Shown here piece after piece: positions 1,942-62,522 of a stretch of 64,000 nucleotides of DNA; the first letter of the stretch is position 1; every line of letters starts with the position of its first letter. The notes under the pieces are model-generated. The model saw only the letters and a list, made by a program, of their open reading frames with translations. It did not search any database and was not told the origin of the DNA. The translations under genes and the position numbers were made by a program. Source of the DNA: Crossaster papposus. Lineage: Eukaryota > Echinodermata > Asteroidea > Velatida > Solasteridae. Where the stretch lies: assembly GCA_037893245.1 (NCBI GenBank), contig JBAIAA010000603.1:1302001-1366000 (forward strand). Direction: 5' to 3'.

Positions 1942-1973
1942 TGTGACCTGTCACCACGAAACCCGGACAAAGT
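1942..1973 (+). repeat. Left TIR of the DUF7869-like transposon
   Basis: Perfect 32 bp inverted match to 7024-7055. The outer bases GTGACCTGTCAC form a near-palindrome (only the central CT is unpaired), which could be a binding site for a dimeric transposase. Confidence 0.9.
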
Positions 1974-2925
1974 TGACAAAATTAATTTTGGGTTTATGAT
2001 ATTTTCAAATTCTCCTGTTCATTAGCTTTTGAATGATATATAACTTATGTGGGTAGCCCTTCCCTGTAATTCCGTGCGGGGAGATTAAGACCCAGGATCA
2101 ATCATAAGCCAAACAGAGAAAACAAGGTTTTTGTGCAGGAAGTGCTGTGTGCACTGTGCGTGCAGTTATGCCCGGAGTTATGCCCCTGCATAGTTTCAAC
2201 ATGGATAGCCAATGTACAAGGTATGAACATTACATTTCTGATTGCTGTTTAATGTGAGTGTCATACTTCTTTATAATTTTGCTTCATTACCCTCTTTGAT
2301 ATCTACATGTACGTTATCTGTTGAACTTGCATCGGGATAATGTAAATCAATATTAATTAATCTTGCCCTTCACCGATAAATAAACACTGTACATTCCGTG
2401 TGCAGCGCTACCACCCGAGTGAATGGGGTGGGACTTGAACCCAATATTCGCCATTTAAAACGATCTATTAAAGTTGGATATCTACCTTATCTGCTTTACT
2501 TCTTGAGGTTTGAACATAAATTTTACATTGTCTATAGTGTGCCAACATTCGCTATTTAAAACTATCTACATGTATTACAAGGATTACATACTATTAAAAG
2601 GAGAAATCAACAAAATTAACAAAAGACTGTCTTGTACTAGGTTTCACGGATTGCCGTACTTAACCTTTGACATACAAAGCGAATCGGGGTTTAGGGAGAA
2701 AAAAAACTTCATTAATAAAGAATCAGAAAATCAAAAACAGAGGTAATGTACTTCCACCTCTACAATTAATACCGTAGAAACCAATAACCAATGTTTAAAT
2801 TAAAATGCATATTATTGTGCAATAAAATTATTGAGTTTTGGGTTCACGTCTGTCAAAGCAACCTGCACAGCTTTTTACTTCAAAATAAAAACAATACACT
2901 GTGAGACTTCTGCAACTGTTTAGAT
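1974..2925. other. 3' noncoding part of the DUF7869-like transposon
   Basis: About 950 bp between the left TIR and the stop codon of the element gene. A 78-codon plus-strand frame (2510-2746) is compositionally A+T-rich and resembles nothing known to me. A short repeat, catt(t/c)gctatttaaaac-like, occurs near 2450 and 2550. No gene is assigned. Confidence 0.5.
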
Positions 2926-5900
2926 TTAGGAGCCCAAACGTGAAATCTTTGCGAGTGGTACATCCTCGTCAGAGGAATCGTCAGATGTAGGCATACTTTC
3001 CGGTTTTGATGGCACTACTTTTGGAGCTGGGCATGTAATATCTCGCGTCTCTGCAGTACAAAACTCCCGGATATGCTTGTGGAGGTATCCAACACGGGCG
3101 CTTGACAGACCTGGTACGGAGAGAGCCTGAGGTAAATCCCTTGGGGGGAGATTGGCGGAATTCCGCAGCATCTGATACTCCTGCTCCTCACTTTCTGCTG
3201 TGAGCTTGGTGAAGACCTTGCCTGGATGTTCATTGCTGAACCTGCAAAAACATAAGCAAAATAATGACTAATAACATAAAACATGCACATGAAGCTCAAA
3301 TTTACCTATGCAATAACAGCGGATGTCTGACTAGATTGGTAAAAGGTCACGTTTAGCACCAACTCATTTTACACAAAAAACAAAGATTTTTTACCTCCAT
3401 TTTAGGTTATGGCAGGCAAAACCTTCAAAGATGGCAATGCTGACAAGTTAAAGCATGCAAACAATGGACTGCATTTTCTCTATTCCCAAACTGAACATGT
3501 TTTATTCTCTAGTTTGCAATTTTTTTTATATTGTTGCGCTTGGCTTGATAAGAAATTGGATTTGGAGGGGGGTATATCTGTGGAACTGTCATACAGGTTT
3601 TCACACTGTCTTCTAATATCACCAAGTGATAGTTAAAGTCCTACAGTTATTTGCAATGATAAAAGTACCTCATGTGATGGCAGGGCTTGATGCCAAGAAA
3701 TGGTACAAAGTACGTGGACAAAAACTTCTGCCAGTCGTATGTCCGAACAGTGACTTGCCCATCCTCAGTTCCAACGAGTCGTGGAACATTCACACCAGTA
3801 ACCGAGCTGGAACGTACCACCTTCTCCATGTCTCTCAGGCAGCTCACCATACTCCTGCGATATCGCTGCTTGACCAGGCCAAAGCACCAATCTGGTGCAA
3901 ATTTGGTGTGACCCGCAATCATAAAGTTGACAGTAATGTTCATGTGTAAGGCATTGATGGCTCTCAAGGCCAAGTGCCACATTACATATTTATTTTTGTT
4001 CTGTCCCGAACAATTGTCGCAATGAAGATGAACATCTTGCTCTCCAAGGCCGAAATTGTCAAAGAAGTCGTGTACGTACCGTAGCTGATCACAGCATTTG
4101 ATCCCTTTCCCACAGCTACCCCCTCGTCAATTATATAATTAACCTGTTGTGGGATTGCCTCACATGCTACTCCGAAAAGTCCACATTTCCTTGGGCAAAG
4201 GAAATAAACGGGCCCAGGCTGGAGTGGGTCGTTCGGGTAATGCACTTGCTGTGCGAAATCAAACGGATAATGCATCTGGCCCTCTCTGCTGCATGGTTCA
4301 TTGATGCCGAGCTTGACGTCCTTGTCTACTGTTGTTTTTGAATCTGCCACCATCTTTCTATAGAAGTCTCGCTCCATGGCAACAACATGCAGATGTTCCT
4401 CCTGCTGACGAACTCTCTCTAGCTTCAGTTCCTCCAACATGTTGGCGCTTCGATAGACGGCATTGTTGTTCCGTTGGCATTGCCAACAGAGGTCGCTCAT
4501 GGGTTTTGTTGTCAAGATGAAGGGAGTGTAACGTCTCCAGATGTATGAGAAGGATGTTCTCTTGGCAATTCTTAACTCAGGTTCTCCTGTAAAAACAAAA
4601 CAAACAAAAACCCACATTTGTCGCATAAAAGTCATGTACGCTAAAAAGGTAAAAACAAAGCCAATCCAATCTTTCTTTGAAAACATCTGAGTAGCAGGAC
4701 CAAAGTCGAGTTCACGTCAATTGCTCAACATGCAGTCTTGTTTGAGTACCAATCCATGTGAAGGTACAAGAACAATCACTATACTTGTGCCAATACAAAA
4801 TTAGAAATTCAACATGCACATTATTATGTTTCAACAAAATTATGTAAATTGGACATGAAGATTGCAGTGTTAGCAGAGTTTGCGAACTGTTAACCAGACT
4901 TTTACAGTTACGATGCCATGCAATCCCAAACCCTACTTGTAGCTATGTATGGCCAGTTTATTAATTGATTGATTTAATTTATCAGCGATACGATGTGCCT
5001 CGTTAAGTGTCTCAAGCTGGGTCCTATACTGCCTCCAGATGGATGACTTGTTGTCACGTGAGGGCAGGAGGCGAACTCTAGGGTCCGAACACTTCACACC
5101 GCTCACACGGCCTGGAATCACCATCTCATTCACCTCCGCATAATTGACGATAAAACCAACAGTTCGCCTGATGTCTTTGTCGGAGAGGGCTCTCTTGTTG
5201 TAGCGTCTACCTCCAGACTTCTTGGAAGGCGGAACCACTCCATGTGTTTGATATTGTTTAATGATGCCAGAGAGCTGGTCATTACCAATACTAAAAGTAA
5301 TAAAAAAAAGTTATGAAATTGTATTAAAAACTGAATGTATATACATGCTATTTGTTATTCTTAGTAACTTCCGCGTCTCCTTTGCAAAAACATGTCTACG
5401 CGTCTTAAACTGATTTCTTGTTTGGCAGAAAAATTTAATGTTTTTTTCTGTTTAATGTTTTATTAAAAAATGTTGCTCCTAGAATTTATTTTTTTAACGT
5501 ATTTTGTTTTTGCACTGAAAACTAGAAACACTTTGCCACCTAAGTTAATAATACTCACTTGTGCATGAACACGAAGGACTTGCGACAGACTTGCACTCCC
5601 TCGACCAGATAGGTTACTCTTGACCTCTCCCTGTCTTTCTGCAGTGCTCGTTTTACACATTGAGTTTTTGCGGTTTTCCTGATCGTCGTGGTTATTTTGC
5701 CCATGATATACATCTTGCGTTCTCGCCCTGTCAGATCCGCGTCTGTCATCTGGGCACGCAGCTGTATGATGAAGCTTTCATCGAACAAGTTCGTGCAAGG
5801 ATTGTTTTTGTTTCTGTTGCGGGCACATGTACAATTGCTAAAGTTCCGTATTTTGTGTAGCTCCTCGTCATTATCTGAAGAGGTCCAGTCGTCGGTTCCT

Positions 5901-6298
5901 TCATTATCAACAATCTGCTGTGCCAGGTCAGGCACAAGGCCGATGTCACCATCAACATTCACATGATCGTGATGATTGTCGTTGTTGCTGGGACCAGGAA
6001 CAGCAGGCAAAGTAGGTTGATCTTCATTGTCAGGCTCGTGTCTCTCCTCAGATTCCTGCTCATCATCAACAATGTCCATAGGCTCAGGATAATCTTGATC
6101 ACTCTCCGGCAAATCGCAGTCCAGTTCATCTTCAGATTTGCTGTCATCCTCATCTGATGAGATGCTGTCCCCGAAGTACTCGGTGAGAAGACTTGCTAAG
6201 TTTGCGTTGTCTCGCTGTGCTAAGCCAAGCACGAGTGCTTCATTCAATGCTGTCTGTAAGTTTGCGGCGGATTCGCCAGATTTCGTAACGTGCGGCAT
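2926..6298 (-). CDS. DUF7869-like putative DDE-type transposase, four exons, one frameshift
   Basis: Exons read as 6298-5559, 5290-4992, 4586-3669 and 3241-2926, all with GT-AG introns and matching phases, giving about 756 residues. An acidic N-terminal part is followed by a basic block with TPKxHG-type spacing (QTHGVVPPSKKSGG) and TKPMSDLCWQCQ, a metal-binding-like motif. An RNase H-like core has candidate acidic residues in FDFAQQVHYPND, HCDNCSGQNKN and GHTKFAPDWCFGLVK. The C-terminus has YLHKHIREFC. This layout matches my memory of the DUF7869 family, which is widespread and uncharacterised in invertebrates. Near 4071-4085 the frame slips by +5 or -1 at a duplicated GTAC, so the copy is frameshifted or mis-sequenced. 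An in-frame ATG 45 bases upstream (6343) is an alternative start. Activity as a transposase is inferred from the TIRs and the acidic triad. Confidence 0.75.
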
Positions 6299-7023
6299 CC
6301 TCAATCTTAAACAATTACCTTTATATTTCTTATGCAATCTCACAAACGTAAAGGTGAAAAAAGTACTATTTTAAAAACTTAGCTATCGTTGAATTACCAG
6401 ATTTGTTTCTCCAGCGCCGTGATCGAAATGTCCGCCAAAATGCAATGAACGTCGGACAGAAGCCCGAAGACGAAGATGCCTAGTCTGGTGCCATCCCCGC
6501 TGCATACACGCGCAGCTGCACTAGTGTAGTGGTAACTAGACTAGGCAATTTATCACGTGATGCCAAGTGACGAATCGCAAAGCTTGTAAGAGCCAACCAA
6601 ACAACAAGAATAGATTTTGTTTACGTGTCGAGGCTTTGAAAAAAGCTCTGCCATTGGCAGTTGATGACATCATTGAATTGTTTCATGAATGAAAATTGAC
6701 CCGTGATGATCCTAGCTTTTGGGCGATACCAAATTTATAGAGGGAGGTAATATAGATCGTGCGAATTGTTGGCTCCATTTCGCGAGCTTTAGCGGACGTT
6801 TCGTCGACTTTGTTATGCAAACACGGCCCTTTGTCTTTGTAATTATATACAACCACCGTTCGGAAAAAGGGTTAAAATACGTCTTTATTGTGATCAGACT
6901 GTATTTGTTTTTTGGGAAATGCTCCGTGAATATTTTAAGATAACAAAAACATGGAAACTTAAAAATCGATGATCCCATGCAAAAATGACTTCACACGCTG
7001 TTTATATGGAATGCATGGTTGCG
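6299..7023. other. 5' region of the DUF7869-like transposon
   Basis: Upstream region of the element gene on the minus strand, presumably holding its promoter and perhaps a noncoding exon. No clear TATA box seen. Opposing 74 and 88 codon frames at 6712-6978 overlap each other and look accidental. Confidence 0.5.
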
Positions 7024-7055
7024 ACTTTGTCCGGGTTTCGTGGTGACAGGTCACA
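7024..7055 (-). repeat. Right TIR of the DUF7869-like transposon
   Basis: Exact inverted copy of 1942-1973. It is followed by TA (7056-7057), the matching half of the likely target duplication. Confidence 0.9.
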
Positions 7056-7180
7056 TATTAGAGTGTCTATTCCATAGACTACACTGACACATGCTTCAAA
7101 TATACCAGTACCGGCCCCTTTTACAAATCGTTTCACCACTGGCGAAAAGCATTAGGCTAGTTATAGCATTGCAGACTCAC

Positions 7181-18978: not shown

Positions 18979-21590
18979 TCACTTCCATTTGCCAAAAAAT
19001 GCCCTTCTCCTATCATTAGTTGAGGAAAATGCCTTGCAAACCACTTTCAAATCTAGTGCTTCAGTTAGGTCTTTGTGGATATGTAAAAAAGCCACATAGT
19101 TGAGCCTCTTCTGGGTCATCCTTGATCTAGTATGTTTTCAGACGTCGCAGAGCAGAGAAACTTCTTTCCGAAGTAGCATTTGACATGGGAACGGTGAAGT
19201 ACAGACGCAACAACTTGTGTATTTCAGAAAGAAGTGTTTTGGTGGCTGTTTCCTCTCTCAAGATTTCTGCAATTGTGTTGACCTTTGTGATGTGTTTTAA
19301 TTGCATATTTCTTGGCTGGCGATCATTAATAGTCCTAACAACATCAGGAAGGATCGTCAGATGAATCTTTAAACGATCCATGTCCAATTCATCGGCATAG
19401 AGAGTACAGAGAGCTGGTGGTAATGTGAAGTTAACTCCATTTGCAGCAGAAATTATCATACTTTCTATATCAGACAAAAACAACAATGTTTGCTGATCAA
19501 AACGACTGTCCAATTCAACTAAAAGGTTATCCAAGAGTGCATAATACTGTTGTCGGTAGTATTCCTCAACTGTTTCCCATTCGTGTGCTCGAGTTCCTCC
19601 GTCAATCCGTTTGGGTGGCCTAAACGTTCGTCTTGGAAGCTCTGGCGCTTCCCTAAGGTCTTTTGCTTCCATTTCTGCATCTCCAAAAATGAGGGCAAAC
19701 CGGCAAACGTCTCTTCAGTTCGCATAGACAAATAGTGATTCTTCAGAGTGGTCTTGCACATGGACACTTCTTGCGCCGTCACATTTTTTGCTTGAAACAC
19801 TCTTGCCATCTCCTCAGCAACAGAAAAGACCCTCATACTTATTTTCAGTCCAAGATATGTGCTGAATTTTTCCAACAAAGCAATCAATCCAGGCGCTTTT
19901 CTAACAGCTTCTGACGAGCCTCCTCCCTCATGTACTTTTTCAAGTGTGTCAATAACAGCCCTATAGTTCTTGCAGTCCAACGTGTAGGACACAGAGGTTT
20001 CAGACACACTCCAACTGCCCCAGAAGAATCGCTAAAGTTCTGTGCAATACTCTCAAACAATGACAACCTTTTAGGCGAAGCACTGATGATTCCGTGGACA
20101 TCCTTGATTGCAGACAATGCACATTGTATCATCTTGCAACTCGTCGCAACCTCTTGCAAGACGAGATTTAAGCTGTGATTTACACAATCAACTGTAAGGA
20201 TCTTGGGATTTTCCTTCTTTAACCTGGCAGCAACCCCAGATTTCCTACCCTGCAAAACACCGGCTCCATCAAATGCTGCACCTCTTAAAAACGATGTGTC
20301 TAATCCCATATGTCACAAGACATCTTTAACAGATTTAAATAATGACTTTGCATCTGTGCAGGGGCAGTCATAGAATCCTTAAAAAATCATCTGATATTAT
20401 GTAATCATCACTTTACCCAGCGTAGCGTAAGAGCAAGCTGTTCACGGCCAGCAATGTCTCTAGTCTCATCAATAAGGCTTAAAAAAAAAAATGTTATGTT
20501 GGCGTAACCCGACCGACCCTAAAAATACGGCCGACCCTGGATATTTTTTTTTTCAAGGGACGAAATTTAATGATTAAAATCTATATAAATCTAGTTATAA
20601 ATACGTTTGAAACCATTTCTGACTGTTTCTCATTGTTGTGTGTGTGGATTGTGTATATATTGAACCTGGACACGCTATCGTGTATCACTACCGGCTGAAA
20701 CAATTAGAAAACATATCATTTTCATTGCTGGGAGGGGGAAAAAAAAAAAAACAAAAAAAAAAACGACCTACCTACCCTATTTTTTTGGGCCCGTTACGCC
20801 AACATAACATTTTTTTTTTTATGCCTAATGATGGAACAAATGCCACTCTGTTTTATTTTGTCTGAAAGAGCTGTAAATGCTTCTCGATACATCTCCTTCA
20901 TCTGTTCGTTCACAATGTCGTGGGAAAGGTAATTATGTTCCCTCAACCATGCATCAAGCTTAGTAGACTTATCAGTTTCTTGGATTCTAGACAACAATGC
21001 AAATAGTGATTGGAGGTTGCAACCTTCACCATCAGCATGCCCACGCACAGCAAGTCCCTGCATCATGAGATATTGCAGACACTGGAACTGGAGCATCAAA
21101 CACCTTTGATTTTCTTTCTGACACTTTTCCTTTTGACATTTCAGTGTGGTGTCAATGGACACATTCTGTGCATAAATCAACACTTTAGCAGCACTTTCTT
21201 TATGAAAGTGTGACCTTTCATGCAAGTTTAACTTCCCTGGGCAATCCTTCCAATTATTAATTCCCGTAACTGTGAATGCTACATCACCACACTTTGAAAA
21301 GGTCACAACATTTTTAAACTTCGCAAATCTACAAATAGAACAGAAGGCTTTTTTGTTACTCTTGCAAATGTACAACCATGGTCTCTCTTTCAACCAGTTA
21401 ACATTGAAAAATCTCGGTTTGTTTCCCTTTCCATACAATCTGACAGTTTCTTCCTTTTTAAACGGTAAGCGATGAGGATTGACCATCAAAGCACAGCACG
21501 GTAAGAGGCACTTTTGTGTATCAGTCTGGTGGGGTACGGATGAAGATGTATCACCTGTTCCACTGTTAGGTGCATCAGCTGGTGCTGGAG
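18979..21590 (-). pseudogene. TTF-type zinc-finger hAT transposase, MITE-interrupted
   Basis: Reading down the minus strand: NPHRLPFKKEE; the TTF-type finger (RPWLYICKSNKKAFCSICR, then KLNLHERSHFHKES); helical spacer; LIDETRDIAGREQ (about 20450-20480); FDGAGVLQGRKSGVAARLK and VDCVNHSLNLVLQEVA (20309-20170); CPTRWTAR; then the C-terminal dimerisation block MSNATSERSFSALRRLK (19127-19190), with a tail to about 18979. These are the standard hAT landmarks. A MITE (20473-20828) separates the zinc-finger part from the catalytic part, and frameshifts near 19960, 19670 and 19125 disable it. The N-terminal side continues in frame into the 108 bp minisatellite (21590-22512). Confidence 0.85.
20473..20828. 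repeat. A-tailed-end MITE inside the hAT gene
   Basis: A run of A followed by tgttatgttggcgtaac (about 20481-20507) is mirrored by gttacgccaacataaca followed by a run of T (20793-20820). The inverted match continues outward to aaggc and gcct. About 350 bp, noncoding, with internal purine tracts. It interrupts the hAT reading frame, so it is the younger insertion. Confidence 0.8.
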
Positions 21591-24733: not shown

Positions 24734-26620
24734 TTAGTCTTGAGATCCATTTCTTTGATCATTGTTTTGTTCTTTCAATAGTTCCAATAGAATTTTCAGA
24801 TTCTCCTCATCAAGATTTTGTTCCTCTTGGTTGGATTGTGGAGATGCTTTAGTCCTAGATCGAACAAGTTCATCTTTTATGTTGTTGTGCCGTTTGTATG
24901 CCAGGATGGGTTGGGTATCAAATAGCCTTTTCAGATATTCGTTTTCGCTAATCAAGGGCCAGTGTTTGAGGATAGCCCGTTTCAGGGCTGGGTGCGCGAC
25001 ATGTGGGTAGTATGGTAGGACGAACACCAGTGGGATATTGTTTTTGTTTTTTTAACGCTTAGGGTCCGCGGGAGTCTTTCCCCTTTGAGAAAGGAGAGCT
25101 AGATCTTCGTTTGTGTATCCGCGCTTTTGAAGTTTGTCTTTGAAGAATTCAACCCTCTCCTCAAAGTCTTTTGAATGGGTACATATACGTTTGTATCTGG
25201 TCACTTCGCCCTTGATTAATCCGCCAAATACCGACTTAGGGTGTGCTGAATCTCGAGCTAGGTACTGAAATGTATCAGTTTTTTTGGTAGCGACTCGAGT
25301 ATCCAATATCCCTTCATGTATAAATCGTTCGCCTTTGTAGATAATAAGGTCGAGAAAGGTGACTTGGCGGTGCGAGATCTCAGACGTGAACTTCAGCGTA
25401 GGGTGAATTTTATTAAGTGATTGCACTAGGTCAACAGCCTGCTTTTCATTTCCGTTAAAGATTATGAGAACATCGTCTCTATATCTCATGTAGCTCACAA
25501 TTGAGGGATTGTGAGGGAGGATTTTGTCTTGTTCGTATTTGAATAGAGTTATGTCACAAATCTCCGGACTGCATTCGCTGCCCATGGCCACGCCAATTGT
25601 TTGTCTGAAAAACTTGCCATTAAATTCAAACGTGTTTAGACGCATAATGAGTTCAAGGAGACGTCGCGCGTGGTCTGTTGTGGGCTTGGGTATTGCGTAT
25701 AGTCTGTCATCGGCCATTGCAAGTGCGTCACAAACTGATTCAATTGCCTCATCTTGTGGGCAGTTAGTGTACATGGATACTATATCCAGTGTCATCAATA
25801 AGTTATCTTGCTCCAATGTCAGGTTTTTTAGTTTTTCAAGCACATGCCCAGAATCGCGTGTGTATGTGCTTTGCTGTTTGACAATTGGGAGCAAAAAATA
25901 GTCTATGTATTTGGATATGGATTGAGTCGGTCCTCCGCAACCACTAATGATTGGCCTCCCCACGAACCGTGTTCCTTCTGGTACTTTTTTGTGAACTTTC
26001 GGTAGGAGGTAAAGGCAAGGTGTTTTAATGTCGTGGTTGCGGGGGTTAAGAAACTCCGATATGTCTTTCGATACGAGTCCGTCCACGTAGAGTTGGCGTA
26101 TGGCTTGAGAGACTAATTCCGCGGTTTCATCGGTCAAGTCCCTGTTAATTTCTTCATAGTGGGGGCCTGTTAATTGTCGTGTCCCTTCACGTATGTAGTC
26201 TTGTTTGTTAAGGACGCACACACCGCGGCCTTTATCGAATTGTTTGATGATAATATCCTGTCTTTTCTTAAGGCCAGATAGCGCAACACGTTCTGCTTTT
26301 GTTATATTTAGTTTGACATTTTGAATTTTCAGTCTGGATAGTTCCTCCAGAGTGCCTTCAATATATGACTCTAGGTTTAGATTGAAGGTAGGTTGGGGAG
26401 TCCAAGTTGAAGGTAGTTTGAACGGGTGTGAGCTTATAGGTCTGACTCTCCCTGCCATTCTTAACCGTAATCTCATCTTTCTGAAGAAGGATCGGGAATG
26501 GCGAAGGATGGTCGACCTTTTTGGTTTTTGGGGGGTCGGGATGAAGTTAAGGCCCCTGCCCAATGCTACCAGTTCAATGTGGGAGAGTTGAGCGTCTGAT
26601 AGATTTTTCACATAAGGCAT
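24734..26620 (-). CDS. Penelope-like reverse transcriptase, one in-frame stop, no GIY-YIG
   Basis: One minus-strand frame runs from ATG at 26620 to 24734, broken only by a TAA at about 25052-25054 (after GKTPADPKR). It encodes roughly 628 residues. Landmarks are FDKGRGVCVLNKQDY, PCLYLLPKVHKK, GRPIISGCGGPTQSISKYID, LDIVSMYTNCPQDEA, GVAMGSECSPEICDI, MRYRDDVLIIF (YRDD where Penelope-like enzymes often have YIDD), and VTFLDLIIYKG. The C-terminal linker has KHWPLI and KDELVRS. After that only about 30 Glu/Gln/Asn-rich residues remain, so the GIY-YIG nuclease common in this class is missing. The 5' arm repeat begins within about 30 bp of the start. Confidence 0.85.
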
Positions 26621-26649
26621 ACTTTTATTGGCCCTCACTTTTGGTTAGA

Positions 26650-40071: not shown

Positions 40072-41430
40072 TCATCTCTTGGCCGGGGGCGGTGACGCGG
40101 GGCTGGCAGTGTCTGGTTGATCCCGCCCGCCGCGAAGAAGGTCGGGGCTCCCTTGTCGGGAAAGGCGAGGCGGAGAAAGTTCCCGGCCATCAGGATTGAC
40201 GAGCTCCATCTCGTTGTCGCTAGGATCAATCTCTAGGGCGTGCGCCCCCGCCATCACCCCGGCAACCAACTTGGTGCTGTCGTGCTGGGAGGAACGGTAC
40301 GCCATCATGACGTATAGGAGATGTTCGTCCCAGTCATCCTGGTTCTCTTGCACGAACAGGCTTAACATCGTCTTGACGGTGCGGTTGAACCGCTCCACCA
40401 TTCCGTCGGACTGGGGTGAAACGGCGTTGTACGGGTCTTGTGGACGCCCAGTAGACGGCAGGTGTCCTGAAACAGTCGGGCCTCGAACTCCCTCCCCTGA
40501 TCCGTGTGGATCTCGAGGGGGGTGCCAAAACGGGTGATAACCTGCTCCACGAGGGTTTGGGCCACGGTGTCTGATCCGGGATCGGAAAAGCCTCTACCCA
40601 CTTGGTGAAATAATCGGCCACCACCATGATGCTCGTATTCCCAGCCTTGGTTTTGGGGAACCGGCCTGTGAGGTCGATCGCGATGCGCTCCATCGGCGCA
40701 CCCACCAAGTACTGCTGCAGTGGGGGTCGAGGGGGCGGCTTCTTGGATCCACACTCCTCCACCTGGCGTCGCATCTCTCGGAAGTACACCAGCACCTGTC
40801 TCAGCCGAGCAACCGTCCGGGTAACGCAGCACCGGCGCCGTGGTCAACGCGTCCTTCAGATGGTCGAACGCTGACTGGCAAGCAACCGACCAAGAGAATG
40901 TTCTCTGGCTCTTGGTGGTCAGGGCGTAGAGGGGGCGGCCAATCTCGGCGAAGTTCACGATGAACCGCCTGTAGTAGGAGGCGAGGCCCAGAAAGATCCT
41001 GACTTGGGTCAGGTACGCGGGTTGCGGCCAGCTCCTGATGACCGCGACTTTCTTTGAGTCGGTCCTGACTCCGTCGGCTGACACGAGATGGCCCAGGAAG
41101 GACACCTCCTTCTTGAAAAGGCTACACTTCTTTGGCTTGAGCCTCAATCCCGCGGCCCGGAACCGTTCCAGGACTACCGCCAACCTCCTCTGGTGCTCCT
41201 CGAAGTCCGTCCCCCACACGATCACGTCGTCCAGATAAACCACCGCCACTTGCCACTGCAGTCCCTTCAGCACCTGTTCCATCAGGCGCTCGAACGTCGC
41301 TTGGGCGTTACACAGCCCGAACGGCATAACGGTGAACTGGTACAGCCCGTTTTGCATGCCGAAGGCCGTCTTCTCCCGGTCCTCCTTCTCCATCCCGACC
41401 TACCAGTAGCCGCTGGCCAGGTCAAGGGTA
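40072..41430 (-). pseudogene. Gypsy pol remnant: reverse transcriptase and integrase
   Basis: Starts abruptly at STLDLASGYW (41430), with a stop (TAG) where Gln would follow, then KTAFGMQNGLYQFTVMPFGL, VAVVYLDDVIVWG (catalytic YLDD), LKPKKCSLFKKEVSFLGH and FLGLASYYRRFI. After TTAPVLRYPDG the sequence jumps out of frame into the integrase: PMERIAIDLTGRFPKTKAG, MVVADYFTKWVEAFP, then in other frames EIHTDQGREFEARLFQ and MVERFNRTVKTMLSLF, ending in a Pro-rich tail. RNase H is deleted and several frameshifts are present. Confidence 0.9.
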
Positions 41431-45433: not shown

Positions 45434-48400
45434 TTAAAAAGCTTGTTTAAAAAGATGAGTCTTCAGGACTGATTTAAAAACACCAAGATTAGCAGCATTC
45501 CTAACATGAAGTGGGAGTTTATTCCAGAGGTATGGAGCACTATATTCAAAGGCTCGGTCCCCAAGAGTAGCCTTGCCACAACCTACAGGGTAGTTAAGAA
45601 AGATACCATCACTAGAACTACGAAGACAGTAACGAGATTGGGACTTGATAGAAACAAGCTGACTTAAATACTGTGGGGCTAAACTATGTAAAATTTTGTA
45701 AGTAATCAATAACAGTTTGAATTCAATTCTAGACCGAACAGGAAGCCAATGTAGATCCATAAACAATGGTGTAATATGACAAAACTTGAATGCATTACAG
45801 ACAAGCCGAGCACAAGCATTTTGAACTCTCTGGAGTTTATCAATCTGTGCCTTAGGTAAACCATAAAACAAACTATTACAGTAGTCAAGTCTACTAGAGA
45901 TAAATGCATGAATCAGTGTCTCCGTACATTCCTTTGATAAATATTTCCTAATTCGTCTAATGTTATGCAAATAATAAAAAGCACTACCGCACACTTTAGT
46001 TACATGAGTTTTCATTGACATATTGTCATCAAACCATGCACCTAAGTTTCGGGCAAGGGAGACAGGGGAGAGAATGGACTGGCCAACCTGTATGCCGTCC
46101 AATGTAACTTTACACAATTGCTGACGTGTACCAATTATCAAGAACTCTGTTTTTTTGTCATTCAAAAATAACCCATTAGTAAGCAACCATTGTCGTACAT
46201 CATGGATGCAAGCTTCCATGGCAGAAACAGCGAACTCCTGACTACCAGCCTCGTCAGGACTGAATGACAGATACAACTGTGTATCATCTGAGTAGCAGTG
46301 AATCTGTGGATGATGAACTTTGACAATGTCAAACAGTTGACTGGTATACAAAATAAAAAGTAGGGGGCCCAGACATGATCCCTGTGGGACTCCCCATTCA
46401 AGGTTATAGTTATTAGACAATTTACCATTAATTAAAACCCTTTGAGATCTGTTGGCTAGATATGAACAAAACCAATTGAGGGCTGTACCGTTAATTCCAA
46501 AACGTGACTGAAGTGCACTCAATAGAATATTATGATCTAATGTATCGAATGCAGCACTTAAATCTAATAAGACCAACAGTGATACATGTTTTCTGTTCAT
46601 AGCCATTAACAATTCGTTCTGAATTTTCAAGAGAGCTGTTTCAGTACTATGAAATTTACGGTATGCTGACTGCATCAATGGATATAAATTATTCTGAGTC
46701 AGGTAAGACTGTAATTGACTTGCCACAACTCTTTCTAATAGTTTTGAAACAAACTTTAAGTTACTAATAGGTCGGAAGTTCTCCACCCTAGCCTCGAGAC
46801 CAGGCTTTTTTAACAGAGGGAGAACAACAGCCGACTTCCATATAAGTGGAAAATGCCCAGTTTGTAATGAAAGGTTAATCAACCTCGTGATGAATGGTAA
46901 TAAAATATCTGAACATTCTGTGAATAATTGCATAGGAATTGGATCCAGTACACATGTTTTCTTACTAGAACCAGTCACAAGTGTATGAACACAACTTTCA
47001 GACAGTTGACAGAAATCAGTAAAAACAGCCGTCCGAAGATGAGGTAAGGGAGGTATGCCATAATTCAGTGGGCTGTTTGCCCTACACAATGCTAACCTTA
47101 TACGGGAGATTTTCTGGACAAAAAAGTCACCCATACAGTTAGCGAGCTGTAAATCGTCGGTATGCGGAGGTAATGATGACACGTTGTTGCGAAAAAGAGA
47201 ACATGCAGCTTTAAAAAACTTTCTTTGATTTGTACTGTTATCTTCAATAAATCTTGTATAATAATCCTGACGAGCAATTTTCATTAAAAAAGTGACAGAA
47301 TTTTTCTTCAACTTGAACAAATATAAATCATGTTGTAACCCAGTTTGGCGCCATTTCCTTTCATGTTTTCTCCTGTCACACTTGGCCTTCTTGATATTGT
47401 CATTAAACCAAGGTACCTGTGGGCGAACAATAATCGTTCTATTGATAACTGGAGCATGACAATCAATAATGGCACCTAAAGTATCACTATATAAATTAGC
47501 AAGACCCTCGAGATCATCCAGATTTACATGAGAGGACTCAATATTACACAAATCTGAATCAAGTATATCGTCCCTAAACCTTGCCAGATTGATGGCCTTA
47601 ATTTTCCTGAACGACACTTCTTTCGAAGATAAGCAAGGTTTACTGAATTGTAGATTACACACAACTGAAAAATGATCAGAAAATAATTGATCAGAAACTG
47701 GATCACCCCGAATAATGGATTCAGACTGACGGCTGATTATTAAATCCAATGTATGACCTTGTACATGAGTAGAGGTAGTGACATGCTGATGTAAATTCAT
47801 AGATTCAAGCATTTCACAAAAGTGTATAGCATCAAGGGTTTGAGTCGCATCAACATGAATGTTAAAATCACCGGTAATCACAAGTGGTTCACTAGATAAT
47901 ACAAGTGATTCTAAATAATCAGAAAATTCAGTTAAAAATGTTGTCAGAGTCACCTGATGGTTGGGTGAGTAAGGTGGCCTGTATATAATAACCAGTCTAA
48001 GAGGTTGTGATCCAGACTTAATTAACCATTCCGAAAATTCATATGACTGGCGTTCACCAGCGGCAAGCTTGCTAACTTCCATGTTGTCTCGTAAAAGCAG
48101 TGCAGTACCTCCACCAGTTCGACTGCTCCTCGGGTGGTCCAGAAATTTAAATCCTATGGGTGTTGCTTCAATTCTACAAGCATCATCAGTGTCTTTAAGC
48201 CAAGTCTCTGTCAATGCGAATATATCAGCACCAGAACTGCAGACATAATCAACGAAGTCACTTGTTTTGTTCTTAAGTGACCGCGTATTTATTGTACAAA
48301 GTTTCGCAGCGGAATCCTCATCAGAACTAACAGTCAATGAATGGCGAGGAATACAAACCAGTGGTCTCGAGTTAGACCGCATTCGTGAGAATGTTGTTGA

Positions 48401-49138
48401 ACAGGTACGCTCTCGAATGATGACATCAATTGTCTGAGTAGACGAGCATGTCTGTGGTGATGGTAAGCTGCAACCGTTATTGTTTTCTTGACGAGAAAGA
48501 ACATCAATCAGTGATCTTGGTGAAAGGTTCATCTTACCGGTAGATGTTAAAGTTGATCGATCATGGCGAGACATGATGACAGGAATGGGTTGATTACAGC
48601 GTTTTATCCGCCTGCCACCTCTGCGACCCCGATGATGTTGCTTAGCAATCCCCAGTGAAATCAAGTAGTCCCATGTTGCTTTAGGTAGTACAGATGTACT
48701 CTGGAATTTCAGTAATTCTTGACGTGTGTAGACCAGCCCATCTTGATGACATTCAGTAAATTCGCTATCACTTGTACTTGTTGTAGAGGGGCCTGGGTTT
48801 ACAGAAACATCCCCAGCAATTATAATGTCTGTTGGTGGATCGTGGCCAGGAATCAATAAACATGTTTGACCATGTTTTGACCACTTCGCTTGGGGGACCC
48901 TTGAAGAACAAAATCCCACTGGACATCGACAACGCCGTGTAAATGAAATCGTTACCGGTTTGTGCTGTACTTCTGCTAAAGCTGACCACAACTTGCAGGT
49001 AACAGTCAGATTTGTAGAAGAACTCGCATCATTGATGGAAATACAGGGCTTCAATGTACATATGCTTGAAGGCAGTGCCAGTCCTCGGAGTAACAATAAA
49101 AACATCACCGGTCCAGCAGAGTAACAAACGGCGGCCAT
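45434..49138 (-). CDS. LINE polyprotein: N-terminal 2A-like segment, AP endonuclease, reverse transcriptase
   Basis: 1234 residues from ATG at 49138. Residues 1-30 are hydrophobic and signal-like (VMFLLLLRGLALPSS). A Cys-rich stretch follows, then DVSVNPGP (110-117), a 2A-like recoding motif. The endonuclease begins near residue 280 with INTRSLKNK and has ALTETWLKD, ITGDFNIHVD and DLIISR with FSDHFSV. The reverse transcriptase has FRPISNLKFVSKLLERVV, LDLSAAFDTLDH, GVPQGSCLGPLLFILYTS and the catalytic CYSDDTQLYLSF (SDD rather than ADD). The tail ends NLGVFKSVLKTHLFKQAF. This is the usual CR1/L2 order for target-primed reverse transcription. A separate ORF1 was not seen upstream. Confidence 0.95.
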   Translation of the reverse strand: MAAVCYSAGPVMFLLLLRGLALPSSICTLKPCISINDASSSTNLTVTCKLWSALAEVQHKPVTISFTRRCRCPVGFCSSRVPQAKWSKHGQTCLLIPGHDPPTDIIIAGDVSVNPGPSTTSTSDSEFTECHQDGLVYTRQELLKFQSTSVLPKATWDYLISLGIAKQHHRGRRGGRRIKRCNQPIPVIMSRHDRSTLTSTGKMNLSPRSLIDVLSRQENNNGCSLPSPQTCSSTQTIDVIIRERTCSTTFSRMRSNSRPLVCIPRHSLTVSSDEDSAAKLCTINTRSLKNKTSDFVDYVCSSGADIFALTETWLKDTDDACRIEATPIGFKFLDHPRSSRTGGGTALLLRDNMEVSKLAAGERQSYEFSEWLIKSGSQPLRLVIIYRPPYSPNHQVTLTTFLTEFSDYLESLVLSSEPLVITGDFNIHVDATQTLDAIHFCEMLESMNLHQHVTTSTHVQGHTLDLIISRQSESIIRGDPVSDQLFSDHFSVVCNLQFSKPCLSSKEVSFRKIKAINLARFRDDILDSDLCNIESSHVNLDDLEGLANLYSDTLGAIIDCHAPVINRTIIVRPQVPWFNDNIKKAKCDRRKHERKWRQTGLQHDLYLFKLKKNSVTFLMKIARQDYYTRFIEDNSTNQRKFFKAACSLFRNNVSSLPPHTDDLQLANCMGDFFVQKISRIRLALCRANSPLNYGIPPLPHLRTAVFTDFCQLSESCVHTLVTGSSKKTCVLDPIPMQLFTECSDILLPFITRLINLSLQTGHFPLIWKSAVVLPLLKKPGLEARVENFRPISNLKFVSKLLERVVASQLQSYLTQNNLYPLMQSAYRKFHSTETALLKIQNELLMAMNRKHVSLLVLLDLSAAFDTLDHNILLSALQSRFGINGTALNWFCSYLANRSQRVLINGKLSNNYNLEWGVPQGSCLGPLLFILYTSQLFDIVKVHHPQIHCYSDDTQLYLSFSPDEAGSQEFAVSAMEACIHDVRQWLLTNGLFLNDKKTEFLIIGTRQQLCKVTLDGIQVGQSILSPVSLARNLGAWFDDNMSMKTHVTKVCGSAFYYLHNIRRIRKYLSKECTETLIHAFISSRLDYCNSLFYGLPKAQIDKLQRVQNACARLVCNAFKFCHITPLFMDLHWLPVRSRIEFKLLLITYKILHSLAPQYLSQLVSIKSQSRYCLRSSSDGIFLNYPVGCGKATLGDRAFEYSAPYLWNKLPLHVRNAANLGVFKSVLKTHLFKQAF
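48788..48811 (-). other. 2A-like ribosomal-skipping motif in the LINE ORF
   Basis: Codons 110-117 spell DVSVNPGP, matching the 2A core D-x-(E/S)-x-N-P-G-P, preceded by a hydrophobic IIIAG. 2A-like sequences are known near the N-terminus of LINE ORFs in sea urchin and lancelet. Here it would release a 116-residue N-terminal peptide with a signal-like start. Ser in place of the commoner Glu is tolerated in some 2As; activity is inferred. Confidence 0.65.
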
Positions 49139-49388
49139 GTTGTTTCAGAGCTCACACATACAGTGTACCTTTCGATTACTAAATTGTTTTTACCTGTCGG
49201 CCTTCAGTCATCTTCTGAACTGTATCCAATAGTGCCATTGCTCGTTTCTGCAGTGTTTCCAGCGGGGTTTCGATAATCATGCAGAACTCGGCAAGAACCT
49301 TGAAAATAAGAAAAACATAACTTTTTGCTTTCGTCTTACTTTTCTGAGCCAGGTGTAACATGAACCTAGTAATACGACAATTGCACAT

Positions 49389-58398: not shown

Positions 58399-58496
58399 CG
58401 GGTCCCGCCACCCACCTCTTCGTCACTTCTCCACCGACCCTCGTGGGTGAAGACAGAGGTTCCTGCTAATCGTCTCTAGAAGAACCACCTGAGAAG

Positions 58497-59790
58497 ATGG
58501 AGGATCCCGACATGCTGCGACTACAATTCGAAATCGCGGTTCTCCAACATCAGCAGAACCTCATTGAACTGGCATTTCACCAAGTCCATGTCATCAGGAG
58601 AAGGAGAAAGAGAAGAGGTCAACGGAGGTTCTGGGTCCGACCGTGGATCGGTAGGCGACGACAGTTTGGCCTGTATGACCAGCTACTTGTGGAACTCCGT
58701 AACGAAGACCAGGCAGCCCTCAAGAACTTCATGCGGATGCCCCCCGAGATGTTCGACGAGCTGCTAACGAGAGTGTGTCCGAGGATAACCAAGAAAAATA
58801 CTACCTACAGAGAGGCCCTCGACCCTGGCCTGAAGCTTGCCCTCACTCTGCGGCATCTTGCATCTGGGACCAAGTATCGCTCAATGTCCTATGGGTGGAG
58901 GGTGCCTCACAACACCATATCCCTGCTCATCCCAGAAGTTTGCCAGGCCATCATCGCTGAGTACAAGGATAAGGTGATGAAGTGTCCCACCACTCCTGAG
59001 GAATGGCGTGCCATATCTGACAAGTTTATGGACAGGTGGAACTTCCCCCATACATGTGGTGCACTTGATGGCAAGCACGTCAACTGCAAGTGTCCTCCAA
59101 ACAGTGGTTCCCTATACTATAACTATAAAGGGGTTCTACTCCATTGTCCTCATGGCGCTCGTTGATGCTGATTACAAATTCATCTGGGCAGACATCGGCG
59201 GTATGGGATCAGCATCAGACGCTCAGATCTACAATGCCTCTGAGCTTAAGGAATGCGTTGAAGATGGTAGTCTAGGCTTCCCTGATCCCGATCCTCTTCC
59301 CAACGACAACCAGGATGTGCCCTATTTCTTCGTCGGCGACGATGCCTTCGCCCTAAGACCCAACATGATGAAGCCGTACAGCCTCCGGGGTATGACGCGG
59401 CCGGAGCGCATCTTGAACTACCGGCTTTCCCGAGCCAGGAGGGTAGTAGAAAATGCCTTCGGCATCCTGGCCAACCGGTTCCAAGTTCTCCTGAGCACGA
59501 TGCAGCAGCAGCCCGAGACCGTCAAGCTCATTGTCACAGCATGCATGATTCTCCATAATCTGATGAGGACACGGTATCCAAGAATGCAGAACCAGCAGCT
59601 TGACCGTGCCGAGAACATGGGTCGTGACTACGCCCCAGGAGCGTGGAGAATTGGCCTTAACATGGAGGACACCCGCGTAGTCAGTGGCAGCAACACCTCC
59701 AGCAAGGAAGGAAAGAAGCAGAGGAACCTCATCAAGCACTGGGCCAACTCCGAAGCCGGTTCAGTTCTATGGCAAGACAGGATGATCTAG
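58497..59790 (+). CDS. Harbinger DDE transposase, one-base frameshift
   Basis: About 430 residues. The N-terminus is basic (IRRRRKRRGQRRFWVRPW). A helix-turn-helix-like region follows (LALTLRHLASGTKYRSMSY, VPHNTISLLIPEVCQAI). The catalytic triad is readable: first Asp in CGALDGKHVNCKCP, second Asp in ADIGGMGSASDAQIY, and Glu in RARRVVENAFGILANRF. The C-terminus ends WQDRMI followed by TAG. In Harbinger elements this protein cuts and joins DNA with a Myb-like partner. A run of four G at 59130-59133 (three expected) shifts the frame between NYKG and FYSIVLMALVDADYKF; this is a recent mutation or a sequence error. Immediately after the stop comes a 22-base C-run. Confidence 0.93.
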
Positions 59791-60723: not shown

Positions 60724-62452
60724 CTACTGCTTCCCATCAGCACCAGATAGAGTGGGAGTATTCAAATCCTGAGATGTCTCCAACAGCGCAGATAAGCCGG
60801 ACATGTGAGGCAGAGACATATCTGCCAGGTCACGCTCACAGCCTCCAGCACTGCCACTCACTGCACCTGTGTCCAAGCTGGTGGTGAGCACCTGGTTAGC
60901 ACCGCTGATGGCTGCAGACATGCTCTGTTGCTGCGGGGGGTACTGCTGTTGCTGCTGGGGGTACTGCTGTTGCTGCTGGGGGTACTGATGTTGCTGCTGG
61001 AGGAACTGCGGTGGACCCGGAGGAGGAGGCGGCATCTGGTTGGCCATGCTGGCTTGGTACCTCTCCATGTAACAGCAGTCCTGCGAGTGCCACGGGGACC
61101 CAGTTGATGGCCTGGTGCTCTTCCACAGTTCAGGGGCCGGCTGCCACCGCTCGAATTCCACTTGGGAGAGGACGAGAAAGTGGGCGCAGAGCTGGGTCGG
61201 GGGGTTCTGCTTGCCAGAAGGATGGCGACGCGACTTGTGGAGGCTCTTCCTCATCGCTATCCTGCATGGCAACTTCCAGGATCCGGCTGATGTCAGTGCG
61301 TGCCTTCTTGAACTTCCTTTCTGACAAGTTCACCAGTGTCCCCTTGACATAAGTCCCGAAGACCTCTGCCGGAGTCTGTGGCCGCATCGCCTGCCGCAAC
61401 TGGAGCATCTGCTGGTCAGTCTCCTGCAGTCGCTTCTGCAAGGTGGCCATGACAGCATCCTCCGAGTTCTTACCCTTTCCCTTGCCCTTTCCGCTGACCT
61501 GCTGAGACTCTTTATGACGCTCTTCTTCCTCTTCGTCCGCCTCTGCGCCAATCATGGCACACTCAGCCTCAGCAGCCGAATGATCACCACTGTGTACTTT
61601 GATTGCATATCCTTCACCTGCAAGTACAAAATAATAAACATAAGTAAAAGGAATGCGAAAAATGCTAATGCAAAAATGATTGCAAATTGTTTTTTTGATA
61701 CATTGGACATTTAGATACATTTAGATACATTGGACCTTGGGATAGTTAAGATACATGTTTACATAAAAAGTATCAATAGTCTAACAATATGTAGCTGTAC
61801 TTACACTGCGAACTGGCTCTGGTCTGTGGTAAGTGATCTTTTGGAGGAAGTGCAACTTCTGCAGGGTCCAGAGCTCCCTCTCTGTGAAGATCCGTTGACC
61901 GGACCCGGACTTGGGCAGCTTGTCCAGGCGCGCGAAATTGTCTCTCATGCCCTTGAACCACCCTTGCAGGTGAGAGACTTCCTTCGACATGGTTTCTGCC
62001 TGCTTCTGCCATGCAGCGTTCTTCATGCCAGGTCTTCTGTAGTGCATGGCCTTCTTGTTCCACAACATTTCGTTTGCCTCCATGAAGGCGACCATCAACT
62101 CCTCCTCGTCATCAGACAGCTTGTTGTCCTTCTTGTCCTTCTTGTTCTTCTTGTCCTTCTTGCTCTTGGCCACAGTAGATACCTGCGATGTCAGCGATGA
62201 ACGACTGTCTACTGACCCAGAGCGTGAGTGAGTAGGGGAGCCCTCAGGGGATGAGGATGGAGAGCGTGTAGAATCCTCGACAGCATCCTCGACGACAGCA
62301 GCAGGGTCCAGGCTGGGCAGCTCTTTGCCTCTGCCTCCACGACCTCTGCCTCCACGACCTCTGCCTCCACAACCGCGGCCACTAGCAACAGGAGCAGGAG
62401 TAGTCTTCTTCTTGGGGTTCGAGGACGTCGGGTTCCTTCTCTTGAGTGGCAT
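60724..62452 (-). CDS. Harbinger Myb/MADF-like DNA-binding partner
   Basis: Minus strand, two exons. Exon 1 (62452 to about 61810) has RGRGGRGRGGRG repeats, a Ser-rich stretch and a Lys/Asp-rich linker. It then has a trihelix-like domain with the Trp/aromatic landmarks MVAFMEANEMLWNKKAMHY, MKNAAWQKQAETM, LQGWFKGMRDNFARL and LQKLHFLQKITYH. Exon 2 (from about 61620) has an acidic segment, ESQQVSGKGKGKGK, helical TLQKRLQETDQQMLQLRQ and a Gln/Pro-rich end (QQQQQYPQQQQQYP), finishing LSGADGKQ at 60724. A frame change near 61150 is needed to join the two halves of exon 2. Such proteins carry the transposase to the nucleus and bind the arms. Confidence 0.8.
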
Positions 62453-62522
62453 CTTGAAGAGCTCAGTTGTGCACTTGTCGCTGCACTACTTTGATATGAC
62501 GGCAAGCAAGACGAGCCGCCGA

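Follow-up and report, generated by a model that had tools for sequence, protein, structure and literature searches.

A stretch of 64,000 nucleotides from the asteroid Crossaster papposus (assembly GCA_037893245.1, contig JBAIAA010000603.1, forward-strand positions 1,302,001 to 1,366,000; hereafter the window) contains a DNA transposon of 5,112 bp at positions 1943–7054. The element is bounded by terminal inverted repeats (TIRs) and carries a single gene, on the minus strand, whose product has the Pfam domain DUF7869 (PF25273) and is very probably its transposase. Judged from its sequence and that of its copies, it is a recently mobile animal transposon. As a whole, the observations are quite probably explained by a Sola-type transposon, most likely Sola2, with a DUF7869 transposase of the DDD kind.

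Perfect inverted repeats of 32 bp, as reported in a preliminary description of this DNA, lie at 1942–1973 (+) and 7024–7055 (−). None arose in 100 shuffles, which rules out a chance pair, and no third copy occurs within the window at up to three mismatches. Once the 4 bp AWWT are counted as the target-site duplication, the element is corrected to 1943–7054, with a left TIR of 31 bp (GTGACCTGTCACCACGAAACCCGGACAAAGT; 1943–1973, +), a right TIR of the same length that is likewise perfect (7024–7054, −) and one ATAT outside each end (1939–1942 and 7055–7058). The gene, correctly described as lying wholly between the TIRs, has four exons and GT-AG introns. Exon 1 (5559–6298, −) encodes an acidic N-terminus with a cysteine cluster and is followed by exon 2 (4992–5290, −), exon 3 with the predicted catalytic domain (3669–4586, −) and exon 4, which runs to the stop codon at the C-terminus (2926–3241, −). 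The Pfam match to DUF7869 falls within 3647–4126 (−; E 4.4e-13). In the window copy the reading frame of exon 3 is broken within 4064–4085, which the preliminary description did not mention.

Pfam assigns DUF7869 no function. Sequence comparison reveals three aspartates that are conserved across DUF7869 proteins and correspond to 4258–4260 (in FDFAQQ), 4016–4018 (in CDNCSGQNKN) and 3890–3892 (in APDWCFG), all on the minus strand, with 41 residues between the second and the third. In an AlphaFold model, these candidate catalytic residues sit on an RNase H-like fold resembling that of retroviral integrases and the Mos1 mariner transposase, with the three acids in the same order. The element differs from both in its ends and its target, and no PDB chain matches the protein in sequence at E ≤ 1. 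The structure match lists were filled by one domain, and families absent from them may still match. No relevant NCBIfam model matched the window or bacterial proteins, only three chance-level matches to unrelated families being found. A weak signal of PF07592 (transposase 36, the Zator family) was seen in 5 of 26 DUF7869 members (best E 0.0013), lying well below the Pfam cut-off in a bacterial member. Given its DDD RNase H-like domain, the many copies of the element, each with its own target-site duplication, the short copies derived from the gene-bearing one and the TIR-flanked relatives in bacteria, the DUF7869 protein is very probably a transposase, as first proposed.

The 359 bp at the element's left end served as the query for copies in the source assembly (1.02 Gb, 1,841 contigs). 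With 40 of 426 candidates scored, this query matched the genome at least 70 times. The 40 copies inspected comprise 39 genomic stretches and the window copy; exclusion of the one-ended copies L045, L053, L054, L057 and L060 leaves 35 with two ends. Identical 4-mers stand outside GTGACC...GGTCAC in 33 of them, all of the form AWWT (ATAT, AAAT, ATTT or AATT). The two exceptions, CTAT/ATAT and ATAT/ATAC, mismatch at the outermost base only. Because L037 and L042 have common flanks, the copies represent 34 distinct sites, and at 32 of these the two 4-mers agree. The prediction that many copies would share the ends, each with its own duplication, is thus borne out. The proposed TA (or ATAT) duplication holds at the window copy, which has ATAT, and fails as a TA-only pattern: TA is merely the commonest middle of the duplication, and AA, TT and AT also occur. 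The duplication is read as the 4-bp AWWT because the flanking 4-mers are identical in nearly all copies. A 2-bp WW duplication within an A..T context is less likely on published precedent; when the two readings were compared, deviations numbered 2 of 70 at the outer bases (3 of 70 counting substitutions only) and 0 of 70 at the inner ones, against 16 mismatches in 2,100 TIR positions.

Most of these copies are short. They measure 414–427 bp, most commonly 423 bp, and consist of the element's first 204 bp (1943–2146, +; 97% identity to their majority sequence) joined to its last 219 bp (6836–7054, +; 99%). The 31 short copies diverge from their own majority sequence by 1.3% on average. Since they arose from the gene-bearing element by internal deletion, the gene and the TIRs belong together. 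The reading that the TIRs are those of a miniature inverted-repeat transposable element (MITE) family unrelated to the gene, named at the outset as a way in which the proposal could fail, is thereby ruled out.

Four further long copies, L052–L055, carry the element's exons at 97.2–99.7% identity. All four exons are present at least partly in L052, L053 and L055; the part of L054 examined contains exons 3 and 4. The exon 3 frame break of the window copy recurs in L055 and is missing from L052, L053 and L054. Gaps affect exon 1 in L052, L053 and L055 and exon 4 in L053 and L054, and exon 3 of L055 has two. With frame breaks or gaps in the exons of every one, none of the five long copies inspected looks autonomous. 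The near identity of the copies nevertheless implies that the family was active recently. Copy L052 (77–5783 of its stretch) lies within a different TIR element. That outer element measures 423 bp, has the ends GTGACCTGTTCC and its own ATTT duplication, and seems to belong to a second, similar subfamily. The locus does not provide a clean empty site, because removal of the inner element and 4 bp leaves 423 bp that are 61% identical to the short-copy majority sequence.

Relatives of the protein also occur in bacteria. A scan of a prokaryote species collection yielded 13 DUF7869 loci, of which the nine best align over most of the protein at 29–33% identity and four partially. An inverted-repeat search covered 11 of them (L010 and L013 were outside the set) and found TIRs at seven: L001, L002, L004, L005, L007, L008 and L011. 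Whether TIRs are lacking around DUF7869 genes elsewhere, the other worry raised at the outset, was tested in bacteria only and is answered in part. No TIR was found at the four other loci, namely L003 (none above shuffles), L006 (whose left flank is missing) and the pair L009 and L012. This pair comes from a bin of a sponge symbiont and may be sponge DNA. In a shuffle control with 450-nt flanks on nine loci, eight of them scorable, L001, L002, L004, L007 and L008 exceeded all shuffles; L003, L005 and L011 did not, the TIRs of L005 and L011 lying beyond the 450-nt range. The flanking 4-mers, left/right, are AAAT/ATTT (L001), AAAT/AAAT (L002), ATAT/ATGT (L004), ATAT/AAAT (L005), AATT/AATT (L007), ATAT/ATTT (L008) and ATTT/ATTT (L011); AWWT thus stands at 13 of 14 ends, and the left and right 4-mers agree at 3 of the 7 loci. 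Five of the seven loci measure 2.06–2.12 kb, L008 2.7 kb and L005 3.5 kb. The elements of Desulfocicer vacuolatum (L001), Thiomargarita (L004) and Legionellales (L007) resemble that of the window in their A..T flanks and in a protein 31–33% identical to the animal query, and have TIRs of 40–43 bp. They differ from it in having one unbroken open reading frame (ORF), a length of about 2.1 kb and TIRs that start with GGGG, whereas the animal ends start with GTGACC.

A profile search recovered 566 relatives at E ≤ 1e-5. Among the 120 listed, most are proteins of 627–664 amino acids on contigs of 2–3.5 kb, roughly the length that a single insertion sequence would have. None of their names says transposase; most are nameless, and the labels include uncharacterized, hypothetical and, once, chaperonin. 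The last, protein P0237 of Candidatus Magnetoglobus, is likely misannotated. A tree of 40 proteins joins that of the window to two from Antedon (support 100) and unites six bacterial loci and seven metagenome proteins in one clade (support 100); L005, L008 and a protein whose name points to the sponge Ephydatia fall outside both the bacterial clade and the window's group of 24. No DUF7869 relatives were found in viral contigs, plasmids or phages. When the source genome was searched with the Pfam family, at least 177 matches came from the 150 of 358 candidates that were scored; 14 control genomes gave none.

The assignment to Sola rests on published descriptions rather than on comparison of transposase sequences, and on these the element is probably of the Sola type. 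PMC10741241 characterises Sola by a DDD transposase, 4-bp target-site duplications, a size mostly of 2–9 kb and occurrence in bacteria as well as metazoans. The published TIRs measure 11–1124 bp. Duplications of the 4-bp form AWWT, including ATAT, AAAT and ATTT, are given for Sola2 in PMC3627910, and Sola1–3 are retained as subgroups within one superfamily in PMC4455052. The window element has TIRs of 31 bp and a length of 5,112 bp, its conserved aspartates fall on a predicted RNase H fold, DUF7869 occurs in both bacteria and metazoans, and the AWWT duplications agree with Sola2 on the 4-bp reading. It differs from the Sola2 elements of dictyostelids, described in PMC3627910, which have TIRs of 12–21 bp and Fanzor genes beside the transposase. 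One observation weighs against the assignment: among molluscs, PMC10294476 records Sola in bivalves only, whereas DUF7869 also occurs in gastropods.

The preliminary description had instead proposed a separate, undescribed group. In a wider form of that reading, DUF7869 would mark an unnamed DDD superfamily that includes insertion sequences of bacteria as well as transposons of animals, is separate from Sola and has just the 4-bp AWWT preference in common with Sola2. Besides the missing functional annotation in Pfam, NCBIfam and the names of the listed relatives, an aimed search through long relatives that reached no named Sola2 protein is consistent with this. The strings DUF7869 and PF25273 and the motifs receive no mention in the open-licence literature searched, a silence that means little because the founding Sola work, reportedly that of Bao et al. 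in 2009, lies outside the scope searched. A separate superfamily is nonetheless unlikely, and the element probably does not form a separate group, because the 4-bp duplications, the DDD triad and the bacterial members match the descriptions of Sola, as do the ranges of TIR and element size, and AWWT matches Sola2. The element is therefore probably a new family within a superfamily already described, most likely of the Sola2 type, with which it was compared by description only.

Two further explanations have very little probability. A domesticated host gene caught by chance within a MITE-like TIR pair would accord with the broken frame of the window copy and with the short, gene-less form of most copies found by the left end. 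It is contradicted by the derivation of those short copies from the gene-bearing element, by the four additional long copies with their exons (L054 exons 3 and 4 only) and by the TIRs around bacterial homologues. Similarly improbable is a Tc1/mariner-like element with a TA duplication: TA lies within many of the sites and the predicted catalytic fold resembles Mos1, but the AA, TT and AT middles exclude a TA-only duplication, and no mariner or Tc1 domain is among the Pfam matches. Other superfamilies were rejected by their duplications. The TTAA of piggyBac and Kolobok occurs in 0 of 35 copies. A 3-bp duplication is typical of PIF/Harbinger, CACTA and Zator, and 3-bp identity was seen in 0 of 35 copies at each of three boundary offsets, which separates the element from Zator despite the PF07592 signal. 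For hAT, typically with 8-bp duplications, identity was found over 5 bp in 0 of 35 copies and over 6 bp in at most 1 of 35 at three offsets, 8 bp itself being unscored.

A Sola-type element of this kind would move as follows. The N-terminal cysteine and helical region may bind DNA, and the RNase H-like domain with its three aspartates is the predicted catalytic part of a DDD transposase. This protein would bind the 31-bp TIRs, excise the element by cut-and-paste chemistry and insert it at AWWT sites through cuts staggered by 4 bp, gap repair then generating the 4-bp duplications. It would also mobilise the internally deleted copies of about 423 bp, which retain both ends. From the ends, target sites, derived short copies, predicted fold and bacterial elements, a domain that is common in animals and had no assigned function gains a very probable role as a transposase. 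DUF7869 genes labelled uncharacterized or hypothetical, and the one labelled chaperonin, could then be treated as transposons when genomes are masked. The link between bacterial and animal members makes the ancestry of the DUF7869 group testable.

Several DUF7869 matches in the source genome belong to other near-identical gene groups within longer repeats that extend past the stretches examined. One group lies on contigs C119, C779, C890, C18, C507 and C572 (L061–L064, L072–L085), with about 98–99.9% identity between copies; C119 and C779 hold three copies each, about 92–115 kb apart, in a repeat exceeding the stretches. Two more groups (C151, C840, C510, C16, C130 and C192; C17 and C251; together L065–L071 and L086–L096) form long near-identical repeats, one with 98.9% identity across 7.5 kb and running beyond the stretches. 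The apparent left end of the L093/L095 group lends no support, because the AWWT|G pattern is absent.

Elsewhere in the window, a DDE_Tnp_4 transposase ORF (58470–59790, +; E 5e-23), which we take to be Harbinger-type, and a MADF/Myb-SANT-like protein (61781–62485, −) possibly form one Harbinger element. An open frame of the long interspersed nuclear element type (45434–49144, −) encodes 1,236 amino acids with endonuclease and reverse transcriptase domains. Also on the minus strand are pieces of a reverse transcriptase/integrase gene in several frames (40072–41399), another reverse transcriptase ORF that on inspection looks Penelope-like (25052–26644), and a hAT C-terminal fragment (19127–19714).
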